Assembly (NCBI RefSeq): GCF_001590835.1
Contig: NZ_LTAQ01000011.1
Span: 17,996 to 81,995, forward strand
Direction of reading: 5' to 3'
Source of the DNA: Bacillus gaemokensis
GTDB lineage: Bacteria > Bacillota > Bacilli > Bacillales > Bacillaceae_G
DNA length: 64,000 nt
The position numbers and the translations under genes are program-made. Shown here one piece after another: positions 3,498 through 18,197 of this stretch (position 1 is its first letter; the number at the start of each line of letters is the position of its first letter). The notes under the pieces are model-generated. The model searched no databases, was not told the DNA's origin, and saw only the letters and a list, made by a program, of their open reading frames with translations.

Positions 3498-5137
3498 TAC
3501 TCCGTCATGTAAGCCCATTTGTAAGAGTAAATTCCCGCGAATGGACGAACGACAACATCTTTTACAGTTGGACGTTCTAAATAAACAAGTCCTGACTGGA
3601 AGATTGGAGCGATTGCTGCATCGTCTTCCACTAAAATCTTTTCAGCATCTTGGAACGCCTTCCAACGTGCTGATAAATCATTTAGTAGGGAAGAGCCGGC
3701 ATTTTGAATGAATTCATCATATTTTTTGTTAGAGTAGTTCATTCTATTGAAGGAACCGTCTGTTACAAACATATCTAAAAATGTCATTGGATCTGGATAG
3801 TCGGCTCCCCATGAAGAAAGTGAAATTTCAAAGTCACCGTTTCCTTCATGATCTAAGAACGCTTTTACCGGAAGTGGACTTAATGTAATCTTTAACCCAG
3901 GTAAGTTTTTCTCTAATTCACCTTTTAAGTATTCACTAATCTTTTTATCATTTGATTCGTCAGTTGTTAAAATGGAAAGAGAAACGTTTTGCATATTTGT
4001 TTCTTTTTTTGCAGTTTCCCATAATTTTTTTGCTTCTTTTATATTTGTTTCTACATTTAGATTACTTGTACTACGAAAATCTTTATTGTCAGGTCCCTTT
4101 ACAAATCCTTTTGGAATAAGGGCATTGGCAGGAGTAGAGCCGTTGTTTAAAATTGTGTTTGCTACGCCTTTTTTATCAAATGCAAGAGAAATAGCTTTTC
4201 GTGCATTTTTATTTGCAAGTAATGGATTCTTTTGATTGAACCGGAAGAAACTCACAGAAGGGCGCGATTTTTTCTTTAAACTTGAGTCTTTTTGATATTT
4301 ATCAACGAATTCCGAATTAATGATGATACGGTCTACTTGTTTTCCCTCAAATAAGTTAACTGCTGTAGAAGTATCTTTCACGATATTTACATTAATTTCA
4401 TTTAGTTTTACGTTTTTATTATCCCAATAGTTTGGGTTCTTTTTCATTTTATAGCTTGCATCATGTTTCCATTCACTTAATACAAATGGCCCGTTATAAA
4501 CTACATTTGCAGCTTCAAGTCCATAATTTTTCCCTTGAGCTTCTACCACTTTTTGATTTTGAGGATAGAATGTTGCGAATCCCATTAAACCTAAAAAGTA
4601 GGGAACAGGATGTTCAAGTTGTATTTCAAGTGTTTTATCATCGAGAGCTTTTACACCAAATGAATCGATTGGTAATTCTTTTTTGTTAATTTTTTCGGCA
4701 TTTTTAATATCAAACATAATGTGTGCATATTCAGAGGCAGTCTCTGGACTTACAGCACGTTTCCATGCGTACTCGAAATCATGTGCAGTTACAGGGTCAC
4801 CATTTGACCATTTTGAATCGTGAAGTTTAAATGTGTATGTTTTTCCATCTCCACTTAATTTGTAAGATTCAGCAGCAGCTGGAACTGGTTTGTCATCTGG
4901 TCCAGGCATATAGAGTCCTTCCATAACATTATTTAATGCTCCGTAAGAAAAACCATCAGATGCAATGGATGAATCAAGTGTAGAAATTTCCCCAGATTCT
5001 ACAATGTTTAGCACTTGTTTTGAAGCTGTTTTTTTCTTTTCTGAGCTAGAGGTTGTCTCTTGTTTTTGACCACATGCAGATAAAAATACTGATAGTGTGA
5101 GTGAGAGTGCAACCATCCCTTTTATCTTTTTCTTCAT
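3497..5137 (-). CDS. Oligopeptide ABC transporter substrate-binding lipoprotein (OppA-like)
   Basis: A 546-residue extracellular solute-binding protein of family 5. It has a lipoprotein signal ending in LSAC (lipid-modified Cys22), then the conserved start of the lobe (LNIVESGEISTLDSSIASDG), DSKWSNGDPVTAHDF and YNGPFVLSEW. An ATG lies 9 bases further upstream (5146), but AAAGG is correctly spaced only for the ATG at 5137. No permease or ATPase genes are adjacent, so it presumably feeds a transporter encoded elsewhere. A paralogue of similar length lies at 40867-42495. The particular peptide ligand is unknown. Confidence 0.9.
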   Translation of the reverse strand: MKKKIKGMVALSLTLSVFLSACGQKQETTSSSEKKKTASKQVLNIVESGEISTLDSSIASDGFSYGALNNVMEGLYMPGPDDKPVPAAAESYKLSGDGKTYTFKLHDSKWSNGDPVTAHDFEYAWKRAVSPETASEYAHIMFDIKNAEKINKKELPIDSFGVKALDDKTLEIQLEHPVPYFLGLMGFATFYPQNQKVVEAQGKNYGLEAANVVYNGPFVLSEWKHDASYKMKKNPNYWDNKNVKLNEINVNIVKDTSTAVNLFEGKQVDRIIINSEFVDKYQKDSSLKKKSRPSVSFFRFNQKNPLLANKNARKAISLAFDKKGVANTILNNGSTPANALIPKGFVKGPDNKDFRSTSNLNVETNIKEAKKLWETAKKETNMQNVSLSILTTDESNDKKISEYLKGELEKNLPGLKITLSPLPVKAFLDHEGNGDFEISLSSWGADYPDPMTFLDMFVTDGSFNRMNYSNKKYDEFIQNAGSSLLNDLSARWKAFQDAEKILVEDDAAIAPIFQSGLVYLERPTVKDVVVRPFAGIYSYKWAYMTE

Positions 5138-5388
5138 AGCTGTCATCCTTTCCCTTCATCTCTTGCCTAAGTATAAAAGAAGATAAAGAAAATTTCTATA
5201 ATTAAATCTGATAAATCCTATACAAAAACAATAAATTAAGAGGTTTATATAAACTCGAAGTTGTGTGGCTGGAAAAAGAAGCAAAACCAGTATAGAATAG
5301 AAAATATTTCAAAAATCAGAAATTATTACAGTAGGTGTAATACTAATTAGTTACATTTTCTGTTTTTTGAGGAAGGAGAGAGTGAAAT

Positions 5389-9226: not shown

Positions 9227-9399
9227 AACATTTCCTCCTACTCTTGCTCTAATGCAATCATCCTATACTACTATAAACTCGTCACTGTATTTAATAAAGT
9301 ATAAACCATAAGTGGTACAATAGTATTCATCGAAAAGTCATATTTTGAATTTTTATAGGGGAAAATAGCGAAATAATACATGAAAATTCGAAAAATAAG

Positions 9400-9428
9400 T
9401 TGACACTATTTTTATTGTGTGATAAAAA
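9400..9428 (+). promoter_or_regulatory. Promoter of the T-box leader for the NSS transporter
   Basis: TTGACA at 9400-9405 is followed at 17 bp by an A-rich -10 (TAAAAA at 9423-9428, preceded by TGTG). It stands about 35 nt before the start of the T-box Stem I region. Confidence 0.55.
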
Positions 9429-9667
9429 TGATAGTAATCAATTCGGAAAACATATAGTTGGGCAATGAAAGGGTAAAGTAGTGAGAATCTCCCTATATCA
9501 GAGAGCTGGTGGTTGGTGCGAATCAGTATATAGATTATTCATGAAGTTCGTCCTGGAGCATCTTTCATAAATCTCATTGTGAGGAAATGAAAGACGGTAG
9601 TGTATACCGTTATCAAATAAAGTGGTGAAGAATTTTTTCATAACTAGGGTGGTACCGCGATATATAT

Positions 9668-9703
9668 CGTCCCTACGTTTTTACGTAGGGGCGTTTTTTA
9701 TTT
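9668..9703 (+). terminator. T-box terminator 1
   Basis: CGTCCCTACGT pairs with ACGTAGGGGCG, followed by TTTTTTATTT. It competes with the antiterminator formed by the T-box at 9646-9659. Confidence 0.9.
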
Positions 9704-9756
9704 AGGGATTAGCCTTGTTGTATCTTCATAACTAGGGTGGTACCGCGATATTTTAT

Positions 9757-9790
9757 CGTCCCTACGTTTTTACGTAGGGACGTTTTTTAT
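9757..9790 (+). terminator. T-box terminator 2
   Basis: CGTCCCTACGT pairs perfectly with ACGTAGGGACG, followed by a T-run. It belongs to the second T-box copy. Confidence 0.9.
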
Positions 9791-9844
9791 TTAGGTGGTT
9801 TCTTAGTATTCTTCACAACTAGGGTGGTACCGCGATGTTTTAAT

Positions 9845-9879
9845 CGTCCCTACGTCTTCGTAGGGGCGGTTTTTTATTT
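9845..9879 (+). terminator. T-box terminator 3
   Basis: CGTCCCTACG pairs with CGTAGGGGCG around TCTT, followed by a T-run. This is the last gate before the transporter gene. Confidence 0.9.
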
Positions 9880-9977
9880 CTGAAAGGAAGTGGTTGTATT
9901 AGAAAGGAAAGCGGATAGAACAATATGAGTAAGGTTGAAATGAAAAGAAAAAATAGAAGAAGAGAGGAGATAGAAAG

Positions 9978-11315
9978 ATGAATTCACAGCAATGGACATC
10001 GAAATTAGGTTTCGTTTTAGCAGCAGCAGGATCAGCTATTGGCCTTGGGGCGATTTGGAAGTTCCCATACATGGCTGGTGTTGGAGGGGGAGGGGCTTTC
10101 TTCCTGATTTTCATCGGTTTCACATTATTAATTGGTTTGCCTTTATTATTAGCTGAATTTGTAATTGGAAGAAGTACACAAAAAGAAGCTGTTGATGCAT
10201 ATAGAGAAATCGCTCCTAACACATTGTGGCCGTGGGTTGGGAAATTAGGAATTGTAACATGTTTCATATTACTTTCTTTCTACAGCGTTATCGGTGGTTG
10301 GATTTTATTATATTTATGGAATGCAATTACAGGTAGACTATGGGAAGGGAATGGTGCATATGAAGCAACATTTGGTGAAATTATTTCTAATCCATATTTA
10401 GCAGTTGGATCACAGTTATTATTTATTCTTATTACTATTTTTATTGTAAGTAAAGGAGTACAAAACGGTGTTGAAAAAGTAAATAAATATTTTATGCCAG
10501 CACTATTTGTTCTATTCTTTGTATTAATTGTTCGTGCGCTCACATTAGATGGAGCAGGAGAAGGGGTTCGTTTCTTCCTACAACCTAATTTTTCAGCTGT
10601 AAAGTCTACGGATATTCTATATGCGATGGGACAATCGTTCTTCTCATTATCTGTCGGTGTAGCAGTAATGGCAACATACAGCTCATACTTACCAAAAGAA
10701 GAAAGTTTACCACGTTCGGCATTTTCTATTGTTGGTTTAACACTTGTTATTACATTGCTTGCTGGACTTGCAATTTTCCCAGTTGTATTCGCATTTGGGA
10801 TGAAACCAGATCAAGGACCAGGATTACTATTTGTCGTATTACCGGCGGTCTTCAGTAAAATGGCATTTGGAAAACTATTTTTCGTTATTTTCTTATTACT
10901 ATTCTTCTTTGCCACTGTAACATCAGCAATTTCTATGTTAGAAATTAGCGTTGCTTCTTTAACGAAGAACGGTACAAAGAAACGTGAAAAAATGGCTTTA
11001 ATTATTGGTTTGTTAATCTTTGTTGTTGGGATTCCGTCAGCATTGTCATATGGTGTGTTAAGCGATATGAAACTATTTGGAAAAACAGTTTTTGATCTAG
11101 CAGACTTCGCAGTAAGTAACGTTCTTATGCCGCTTGGCGTATTATTAGTTGCGATCTTCGTTCCATTAAAAATGAAGAAAGATGTATTAATGAAAGAACT
11201 TGGAGTAAGTAAAAACAAAGGCTATAAATTATTTGTATTATGGCTATTCTTGCTTCGCTATATAGCACCGATTGCAATTATTATCGTGTTTTTAAATGTA
11301 ATTGGAATTATTTAA
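9978..11315 (+). CDS. Sodium-dependent amino-acid transporter, NSS (SNF) family
   Basis: A 445-residue protein with about 11-12 membrane helices. Helix 1 carries the NSS signature [18 protein letters not shown], with the unwound sodium-site glycines, then GGGAFFLIF. Later regions [19 protein letters not shown] (helix 6) and [11 protein letters not shown] (helix 8) match the family. Bacterial relatives such as MhsT and TyrT carry hydrophobic or aromatic amino acids. The Phe-type T-box upstream suggests uptake of phenylalanine or related amino acids when tRNA-Phe is uncharged. GAGGAG lies correctly before the ATG. A strong terminator follows. The family is firm; the substrate rests on the leader. 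Confidence 0.9.
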
Positions 11316-16536: not shown

Positions 16537-16591
16537 ACGTGTAACAACTAAAAGTTAATTAAGAATTTTCTAACTTTAATATTTTTTATAT

Positions 16592-16885
16592 GCAAAGAAG
16601 AGGAAAGTAGATGATTAGGAAAGTTTCAGAGAGCTGCCCCGTGGCTGTGAGGGTGGTAACAATCGAATCATTGAAGATCACCTCGGAGCATCGCTTGCGA
16701 ACGGGAAACCAAGTAGAGAGCGGCGGAATCGTCTCCGGTAAAAAGACGGGGGTCTGATAGGACCTATAGAGCTTATATTTCGTGAGAAGTATAAGGAAGC
16801 TGAGTGGTACCGCGAAACTCTCGCCTCAGCAATCAAAGCTACAATGGTGTAGTGATTGATTGCTGAGGCGAGAGTTTTTATTTTA
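16592..16885 (+). ncRNA. T-box riboswitch 1 of the ilv operon (Ile specifier)
   Basis: AGAGAG opens the Stem I loop region and GAAG-ATC-A carries the specifier ATC at 16677-16679, an isoleucine codon. The antiterminator has GAGTGGTACCGCG at 16802-16814. The terminator pairs ACTCTCGCCTCAGCAATCA (16817-16835) with its complement at 16857-16875 before a T-run. Uncharged tRNA-Ile should allow readthrough. Confidence 0.93.
16817..16880 (+). terminator. Terminator of ilv T-box 1
   Basis: 19-bp perfect arms at 16817-16835 and 16857-16875, followed by TTTTTATTTT. Confidence 0.9.
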
Positions 16886-16901
16886 GAAAATAGAATAGAA
16901 G

Positions 16902-17198
16902 AAAGCAAAGAAGAGGAAAGTAGACGATACAAATTGTTTCAGAGAGCTACCCCGTGGCTGTGAGGGTGGTAACAATTATATCGATTGAAGATCACCTCAG
17001 AGTACTACTCACGAAAGGAAACAAGTAGGGGGTAGCGGAGTTGTTCCCGGTAGAAGAACAAAAGTCTAATTCGGACTTACAGAGCTTATATTTCGCGAGA
17101 AGTATAAGGAAGCTGAGTGGTACCACGATTCCCTCGTCTCAGCAATGGATTGCTACAAGTTTGTAGAAAATCGATTGTTGAGACGGGTATGTTTTTAA
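16902..17198 (+). ncRNA. T-box riboswitch 2 of the ilv operon (Ile specifier)
   Basis: A second complete T-box, diverged from the first, follows at a period of about 313-314 nt. The specifier is again ATC (16991-16993, in GAAGATCACC). The antiterminator core reads TGGTACCACG (17118-17127), with A in place of the usual G of CCGCG. Its terminator (CTCGTCTCAGCAAT with ATTGTTGAGACGGG, 17133-17187) has two G-T pairs and a poor tail (TATGTTTTT), so it should be leakier than terminator 1. The shared GCAAAGAAGAGGAAAGTAGA at both starts shows tandem duplication. Confidence 0.9.
17133..17196 (+). terminator. Terminator of ilv T-box 2
   Basis: The stem at 17133-17146 and 17174-17187 contains G-T pairs and is followed by TATGTTTTT, weaker than the first. 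Confidence 0.75.
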
Positions 17199-17297: not shown

Positions 17298-18197
17298 ATG
17301 GGAAACCAGTATATCTATATGAATGGGGAATTAGTGGAGAAAGAAAAGGCGGTCGTTTCAGTATATGATCATGGATTTCTATATGGGGACGGTGTATTTG
17401 AAGGGATTCGTAGTTACGGTGGAAATGTATTTTGTTTGAAAGAGCACTTAAAGCGTTTATATGAATCTGCTAAATCAATTTTACTAACGATTCCAATGAC
17501 GGTGGAAGAGATGGAAAAAGCAGTTTTACAGACATTGCAAAAAAATGAATATGCAGATGCTTATATTAGATTAATTGTTTCAAGAGGGAAAGGGGACTTA
17601 GGGCTTGATCCGAGAAGTTGTGCAAATCCAAGTGTCATCATTATTGCGGAACAGTTAAAGTTATTCCCGCAAGAATTTTATGATAACGGTCTTAGTGTTG
17701 TATCAGTTGCCTCAAGGCGTAATATGCCAGATGCGCTTGATCCACGTATTAAATCAATGAACTATTTGAACAATGTATTGGTAAAAATTGAAGCAGCACA
17801 GGCAGGTGTGCTAGAAGCACTTATGTTAAACCAGCAAGGTTATGTTTGTGAAGGATCAGGAGATAATGTATTCGTTGTGAAAGACGGGAAAGTAGTAACA
17901 CCTCCTGCCTATTTAGGGGCATTAGAAGGAATTACACGAAATAGCGTTATTGAACTTTGTGAGCGATTAGGTATTTCATGCGAAGAAAGACCATTTACTC
18001 GCCACGACGTATATGTGGCAGATGAAGTTTTCTTAACGGGTACAGCAGCTGAATTAATTCCAGTAGTAAAAGTAGATTCGAGGGAGATTGGGACTGGAAA
18101 GCCAGGAGAAGTAACCAAACAGTTAACAGAGGAGTTCAAAAAATTAACTAGAGAGCGAGGGGTACGTGTTCCAGGATTAGCAGAAAGCTTAGCTTAA
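17298..18197 (+). CDS. ilvE: Branched-chain amino-acid aminotransferase
   Basis: A 299-residue class IV PLP aminotransferase that transfers the amino group between glutamate and the 2-oxo acids of Ile, Val and Leu. Visible are YDHGFLYGDGVFEGIRSY (about 24-41), RLIVSRGKGDLGLDP, the PLP lysine in RIKSMNYLNN, and CEGSGDNVFVV. It is the first gene of the operon, directly behind the two Ile T-boxes, with AGGAG before the ATG. The next gene begins about 25 nt after its stop. Confidence 0.94.
   Translation: MGNQYIYMNGELVEKEKAVVSVYDHGFLYGDGVFEGIRSYGGNVFCLKEHLKRLYESAKSILLTIPMTVEEMEKAVLQTLQKNEYADAYIRLIVSRGKGDLGLDPRSCANPSVIIIAEQLKLFPQEFYDNGLSVVSVASRRNMPDALDPRIKSMNYLNNVLVKIEAAQAGVLEALMLNQQGYVCEGSGDNVFVVKDGKVVTPPAYLGALEGITRNSVIELCERLGISCEERPFTRHDVYVADEVFLTGTAAELIPVVKVDSREIGTGKPGEVTKQLTEEFKKLTRERGVRVPGLAESLA

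Follow-up and report, generated by a model that had tools for sequence, protein, structure and literature searches.

The leader of a predicted transporter gene in Bacillus gaemokensis raises the question of why a single T-box sensor should be followed by three antiterminator/terminator modules (here termed gates), and whether the second and third gates are themselves read by tRNA. The window, i.e. the whole 64-kb stretch of DNA analysed here (35% GC), was searched with the T-box leader model of Rfam (RF00230), which gave one full-length match in this leader above the gathering score of 93 (9456–9677, 153.5 bits, model positions 1–219). Modules 2 and 3 are spanned by a second, stretched match of only 35.9 bits against the same threshold. 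On the forward strand (as are all features given below), the RF00230 alignment places Stem I at 9462–9559 (ends approximate), with AGAGAG and GGTTGGTG as its distal motifs and as the sole copy of the Stem I motif in the leader, a Stem IIA/B-type hairpin (CGGT...ACCG) at 9595–9609, and Stem III at 9622–9644 (ends approximate). Stem III belongs to gate 1 only, its 5' half being absent before gates 2 and 3 in the alignment. Both the sequence and the alignment identify the specifier as TTC (Phe) at 9547–9549. A promoter-like site (TTGACA, 18 nt, AAAAAT) at 9400–9429 is a consensus match alone, suitably positioned for the leader; one such match in the region compares with 2.7 expected in shuffled sequences, and is thus no more than chance would provide.

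Exact copies of the T-box core AGGGTGGTACCGCG are present at 9646, 9734 and 9821 (spacings of 88 and 87 nt), and with up to two mismatches allowed there is a single additional match in the 64 kb (16801, two mismatches; shuffle mean 0.01). Each core opens a predicted antiterminator of low stability without tRNA, namely gate 1 at 9646–9674 (pairing AGGG/CCCT and CGA/TCG, −2.5 kcal/mol), gate 2 at 9734–9763 (−1.9 kcal/mol) and gate 3 at 9821–9851 (−2.4 kcal/mol). Terminator hairpins follow at 9668–9693, 9757–9782 and 9842–9871, a T run after each extending them to 9699, 9788 and 9876, with stem energies of −18.5, −19.1 and −20.3 kcal/mol, respectively (−13.4, −14.5 and −18.3 kcal/mol for gates 1–3 in a shorter cut). 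Five terminator-like sites were counted in the region 9230–9980, as against 0.3 in shuffles. The strand containing CCCT and TCG is common to the antiterminator and the terminator in all three gates, which makes the two folds mutually exclusive, and the antiterminators (−1.9 to −2.5 kcal/mol) are far weaker than the terminator folds computed alongside (−17.0 to −19.1 kcal/mol). The sequence-only reading of this locus, which had described one sensor with one Phe specifier and three antiterminator/terminator modules at 87–88-nt spacing, was therefore accurate in its layout, its positions and its specifier. No tRNA genes were found in the 64-kb window.

This architecture differs from that of tandem complete T-boxes, where every terminator has its own Stem I and specifier, since the 87–88-nt spacing leaves no room for these elements. 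It is likewise distinct from tandem aptamers acting on one platform (the glycine type), as one sensor precedes three platforms here. One Stem I with three modules places the leader among T-boxes with duplicated terminator–antiterminator elements, a class that was reportedly described by Vitreschak et al. in 2008. The first 222 nt are those of an ordinary RF00230 leader (Stem I, specifier, Stem II/IIA-B, Stem III, T-box antiterminator and terminator), to which the window adds two antiterminator/terminator modules that have neither sensor nor Stem III. In the place of Stem III, gate 2 is preceded by a small putative hairpin in the computed pairing (GUUGU..AUAAC, 9717–9732). Among the 24 intact later modules of the homologous leaders described below, 95.8% of the cells of this hairpin are paired, as against 19–57% when the pairing is slid, while its covariation score was matched by 144 of 500 shuffles. 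It is mostly missing in module 3 of the window, and has one mismatch in both Priestia taiwanensis modules and in module 2 of L010. The terminator sequences vary too little to be informative on covariation.

Homologous leaders were sought by scanning for three cores spaced by 72–102 nt in a genome collection that represents each of 84,980 species by a single genome. Twenty-two stretches were obtained, 14 of which were covered by the Rfam scan, and RF00230 matched at the array in nine (L001, L003, L009, L010, L011, L014, L015, L017 and L020). Twelve stretches were dropped by eye as GC-rich repeats; Rfam likewise returned nothing for four of them (L002, L005, L008 and L022), and the decision on the other eight (L004, L006, L007, L012, L016, L018, L019 and L021) was by eye alone. 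Eight of the nine matched arrays proved to be a Phe leader before an orthologue of the same transporter gene, of the NSS family, in P. taiwanensis, five Lysinibacillus and two Paenibacillus genomes. The scan returned no record from the Bacillus cereus group, which the collection may not include. Scans with leader DNA, which did not demand three cores, matched six of 250 genomes in the family of L017 (six of 32 in its genus) and two of 295 in the family of P. alvei (two of 19 in its genus), and added one new leader (G612, =L087); no shorter leader was found in these families and genera. Only P. taiwanensis itself matched well among 397 genomes of its order (1.8e-128, the next being 3.4e-35). 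In the scans of 397, 250 and 295 genomes, two first-look candidates were scored for each genome, and misses are therefore possible. A class-wide scan for double cores identified L122, a Phe leader with two gates before an NSS gene 85.2% identical to that of the window, and this type of leader was present in one of 23 genomes of its family. In the family of P. taiwanensis, the double pattern was confined to that species (one of 19 genomes). A plasmid search produced one Anoxybacillus match covering 13% of the query, and no triple matches were present in viral contigs.

The homologue set thus comprises 11 leaders (the window, P. taiwanensis, six Lysinibacillus, two Paenibacillus and L122), and the NSS genes behind the homologous leaders are 84–92% identical to that of the window. 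In the Rfam covariance search, which the sequence-only reading had proposed for the leader and its orthologues, such leaders gave one sensor match each. The leaders have two to four intact gates. All 11 have one Stem I motif and a TTC specifier, the base preceding TTC being variable. Three intact gates are carried by the window, P. taiwanensis and both Paenibacillus leaders, four by L017, L020 and L087, and two by L122; L015 has three plus one decayed, L009 four plus one decayed, and L014 three plus one module whose terminator is lost. At least three intact gates are therefore present in 10 of the 11 leaders, although eight of these ten came from the three-core scan and the floor of three is partly a matter of ascertainment. 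Decay is confined to the last module in the three leaders concerned, behind three or four gates that are intact. In L009, gates 3 and 4 are separated by an insertion (roughly 130 nt, about 5120–5255) that contains inverted repeats and could be a small mobile repeat, and similar letters were seen by eye after gate 4 in L020.

To judge what has been retained in the later gates, the 24 intact later modules were compared column by column, leaving out the decayed modules (module 4 of L015, module 5 of L009 and module 4 of L014). The T-box core (14 columns) and TCGTCCCTACG (11 columns) are invariant throughout, as against one of 28 linker columns in that comparison. The bulge TGGTACC is invariant in all seven columns, as against one of 29 in the linker (Fisher, 1e-6), a statistic that is partly circular because the modules were selected by an exact core; with the three decayed modules added, four of seven bulge columns and none of the 29 linker columns are invariant. 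A terminator scan blind to the T-box found an exact core upstream of all 39 terminators in 12 leaders, which answers the circularity only for modules retaining a terminator. The bulge lies outside every helix of both modelled states and is nevertheless invariant, which suggests that the tRNA end makes contact there; the acceptor-end contact at each gate that had been proposed from the window alone would fit this pattern. Both states of the gates (antiterminator and terminator) are conserved across the homologues. Module 1 is 96% alike across leaders, while module 1 and later modules are 72% alike, and later modules are 87% alike between leaders and 91% within them. By this measure the classes defined by module position appear to predate the divergence of the host genera, or that of the transferred copies. 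Homogenisation by slippage could add to the likeness of the modules. Together these comparisons contradict the notion that modules 2 and 3 are recent, decaying duplicates, which would have undermined the earlier reading: modules from the second onward form a class of their own across genera, and their linkers change while T-box and terminator are kept. The later gates are thus under selection, and each is probably read by uncharged tRNA-Phe.

We propose, with a probability of roughly 0.6, that the leader is a switch for phenylalanine starvation in which one sensor is combined with several AND gates in series. Stem I would hold an uncharged tRNA-Phe (the discriminator base of which is A), and at each gate the antiterminator (about −2 kcal/mol) would lose to the terminator (−17 to −20 kcal/mol) unless the 3' end of the uncharged tRNA filled the UGGU bulge. 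Only a polymerase that had cleared each of the three gates would arrive at the transporter gene. The leak would then be the product of three leaks, while under full starvation a good part of transcription would still pass. Terminators in series can act only as an AND gate, because tRNA arriving late cannot rescue a polymerase that has stopped. By way of illustration, with an assumed leak of 0.1–0.3 and an open passage of 0.7–0.8 per gate, the on/off ratio rises from 2.7–7 to 19–343 with three gates, at an output of 49–64% of that of a single gate. The arrangement suggests that the cell checks the shortage of phenylalanine several times before the gene is read. We infer tRNA-Phe as the ligand, tRNA contact at each gate and a low leak as the purpose. 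The scheme is supported by a Veillonellaceae MAG (L003), in which three gates, their terminators unlike those here, precede a gene for an ABC binding protein, while L122, with its two gates, is a counterpoint to the three-gate set.

How one sensor could serve several gates is more tentative. The anchored tRNA would most likely be re-used, in that terminator 1 would refold behind the polymerase, the tRNA end would be freed and the next gate would then be tested; this step is a guess. In studied T-boxes Stem III is part of the tRNA-docking domain, and its absence before gates 2 and 3 speaks against their being read by tRNA. According to a single-molecule study (PMC5951919), the tRNA is snap-locked at the antiterminator in an ultra-stable complex, which makes a quick hand-over doubtful. 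Repeated tRNA contact is nonetheless preferred, with hand-over as its most likely form, in which we have modest confidence. An elaboration to which we give a distinctly smaller chance, well short of even, is that the leader performs proofreading by RNA only: one anchored tRNA would be queried n times for its amino acid, every terminator would refold once passed and so free the tRNA end, and gain and loss of repeats would tune n (2 to 4 here).

Gates 2 and 3 might be opened by further tRNAs without Stem I anchoring, as the sequence-only reading had also considered, which would agree with the bulge kept in the later gates, with the single Stem I and with the ultra-stable holding of tRNA by the antiterminator reported in PMC5951919. 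However, an antiterminator that is free should bind tRNA only weakly and with no anticodon check, so that specificity and speed would be poor at gates 2 and 3, and this reading seems unlikely to us. Alternatively, modules 2 onward may be by-products of repeat slippage that are kept alike by homogenisation and have little regulatory effect, in keeping with the range of two to four intact copies, the decay of an extra last module in three of ten leaders and the near identity of modules 2–4 in L017. Slippage does not readily explain why linkers diverge where T-box and terminator do not, why module 1 and the later modules remain separate classes across genera (72% between, 96% and 87–91% within), or why 39 of 39 terminators retain a T-box, and we regard it as very improbable.

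A further alternative, which we likewise hold to be unlikely, is that only gate 1 senses tRNA and that the later gates merely catch leaks. The tRNA-held antiterminator 1 would leave the 3' arm of terminator 1 idle, this arm would capture the 5' arm of terminator 2 while the second hairpin is still unclosed, and gate 2 would open without tRNA, and so on along the leader like dominoes. In calculations with polymerase and tRNA outside the model, forcing antiterminator 1 caused the just-emerged 5' arm of terminator 2 to pair with the 3' arm of terminator 1 at 0.99, with the same outcome for gate 3, and the cross duplexes in the window amount to −18 to −20 kcal/mol. At equilibrium, with the terminator complete, the capture is reduced to 0.37 at gate 2 (own hairpin 0.09) and 0.28 at gate 3 (own hairpin 0.70). 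If such capture were generally selected, the forward cross-duplex (3' arm of terminator 1 with 5' arm of terminator 2) should exceed the useless reverse one, as it does in L122, the arms of which differ (−17.8 versus −13.1), and in the second pair of L003 (−23.8 versus −20.4 kcal/mol). However, among the ten doubles L114–L123, two of which (L114 and L117) are near-identical, the forward duplex is weaker in eight (two of them by 0.2), equal in one and stronger in L122 alone, and it is also weaker in the first pair of L003 and in L013. Capture as a generally selected mechanism was thus set aside, the comparison of forward and reverse cross-duplexes giving it no general support, with L122 pointing the opposite way. 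It also leaves the invariant tRNA-contact bulge of the later gates unexplained. As a separate observation, the T-box consensus comes close to being self-complementary (10 pairs, −19.2 kcal/mol), and neighbouring T-boxes (e.g. 9646–9659 with 9734–9747) pair in the computed OFF fold; such pairing is a property of the consensus and is energetically real.

The regulated gene (9978–11315, 445 aa) belongs to the NSS/SNF sodium symporters, with matches to PF00209 (175.6 bits) and NF037979 (124.9 bits). Its product is a probable transporter of phenylalanine (or an aromatic amino acid), a substrate proposed because of the Phe specifier and because a 2008 survey (PMC2494555) notes a Phe T-box ahead of an NSS gene in the B. 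cereus group; the TTC specifier of all 11 leaders fits this prediction. A short reading frame lies near the transporter start codon in the window (9925–9981), and frames of 11–18 codons end near the start in eight of ten leaders looked at, a set without P. taiwanensis. Their letters begin MNKDRIVI.. in six homologues and are different in the window and L122, and the frame may be due to chance. The NSS gene of P. alvei (L092) contains one in-frame TGA, while the copy of the other Paenibacillus (L084) is intact. Ahead of a more distant NSS paralogue (61%) in L103, two complete T-boxes (946–1429; 144.7 and 120.2 bits), both with a TTC-like specifier by eye, meet the same regulatory need in another way.

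In a tree of the NSS proteins, from which three paralogues were left out, P. taiwanensis (three gates) branches first and L122 (two gates) next with support of 98/95, followed by the rest (86/89); the two gates of L122 may represent a loss or an older state. The NSS genes of Lysinibacillus and Paenibacillus are 90–92% identical to that of the window, exceeding the 84% of P. taiwanensis, whereas the single comparator used, ilvD (its match not necessarily the orthologue), is 63–70% identical in nine of the ten genomes compared, the tenth lacking it. The high NSS identity relative to ilvD suggests that leader and NSS gene may have moved together. Judged by eye from reading frames, a cysK-like gene lies upstream in both P. 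taiwanensis and the window, and other neighbours are present in L017 and L001.

The combination of one sensor and two gates recurs. A scan by exact pattern detected doubles in 10 of the 398 genomes sampled from the class of P. taiwanensis, this species among them, and in two of 391 in the class of L013 (own genome included). Seven of the eight double leaders scanned (L116 and L117 of the ten lying outside the Rfam scan) match RF00230, and L118 is alike but has no match above the gathering score. Doubles such as L115 and L119–L123 share with the window family one sensor and more than one antiterminator/terminator, but the latter keeps three to four intact gates across genera. The description of the window as an extreme case accordingly holds for its three to four conserved gates, which constitute an extreme variant of duplicated-element T-boxes, while its novelty is less than was implied, since the duplicated-element class is a known one. 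In the partial texts returned by a literature search no description of at least three gates behind one sensor was found. The accessible part of PMC2494555 mentions that T-box motifs lie at an unusual distance upstream of 'a sodium symporter (4x)' and does not describe extra gates there. Later modules lack Stem I, which is why each multi-gate leader gives one Rfam match at the gathering score, and extra gates are thus easily overlooked.

Serial control before one gene is known in other forms. Tandem T-boxes precede thrZ and trpE (PMC2494555), and a sharper response has been suggested for double T-boxes (PMC9413887). Similarly, in the excerpts of PMC9481103 and PMC12452182, serial control by tandem riboswitches is expected to be sharper and digital-like, but these consist of several complete units, or of one or more aptamers with one platform, and the excerpts contain no class with one aptamer and several platforms. 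Within the Phe leader family the sensor stays the same and the gates number two, three or four, a natural series in which leak, sharpness and tRNA re-use are measurable against gate number. Each of the tandem T-boxes of thrZ and trpE has its own Stem I. The window also contains two complete T-boxes in series (16586–17144; 99.4 and 94.9 bits) before a branched-chain aminotransferase gene (17298–18197) and ilv genes, and each of this pair, unlike the Phe gates, is matched over the full length of the model and has a Stem I of its own. In a rumen Clostridia MAG (L013, 900–1136), three T-box-like cores at 86-nt spacing lie near a contig end, with no Rfam match and with terminators that are weak or undetected in the computed fold. 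The Veillonellaceae leader (L003, 1377–1820) has one sensor and three gates before a gene for an ABC binding protein of the branched-chain type, and its terminators are unlike those of the Phe family, the third reaching about −44 kcal/mol.
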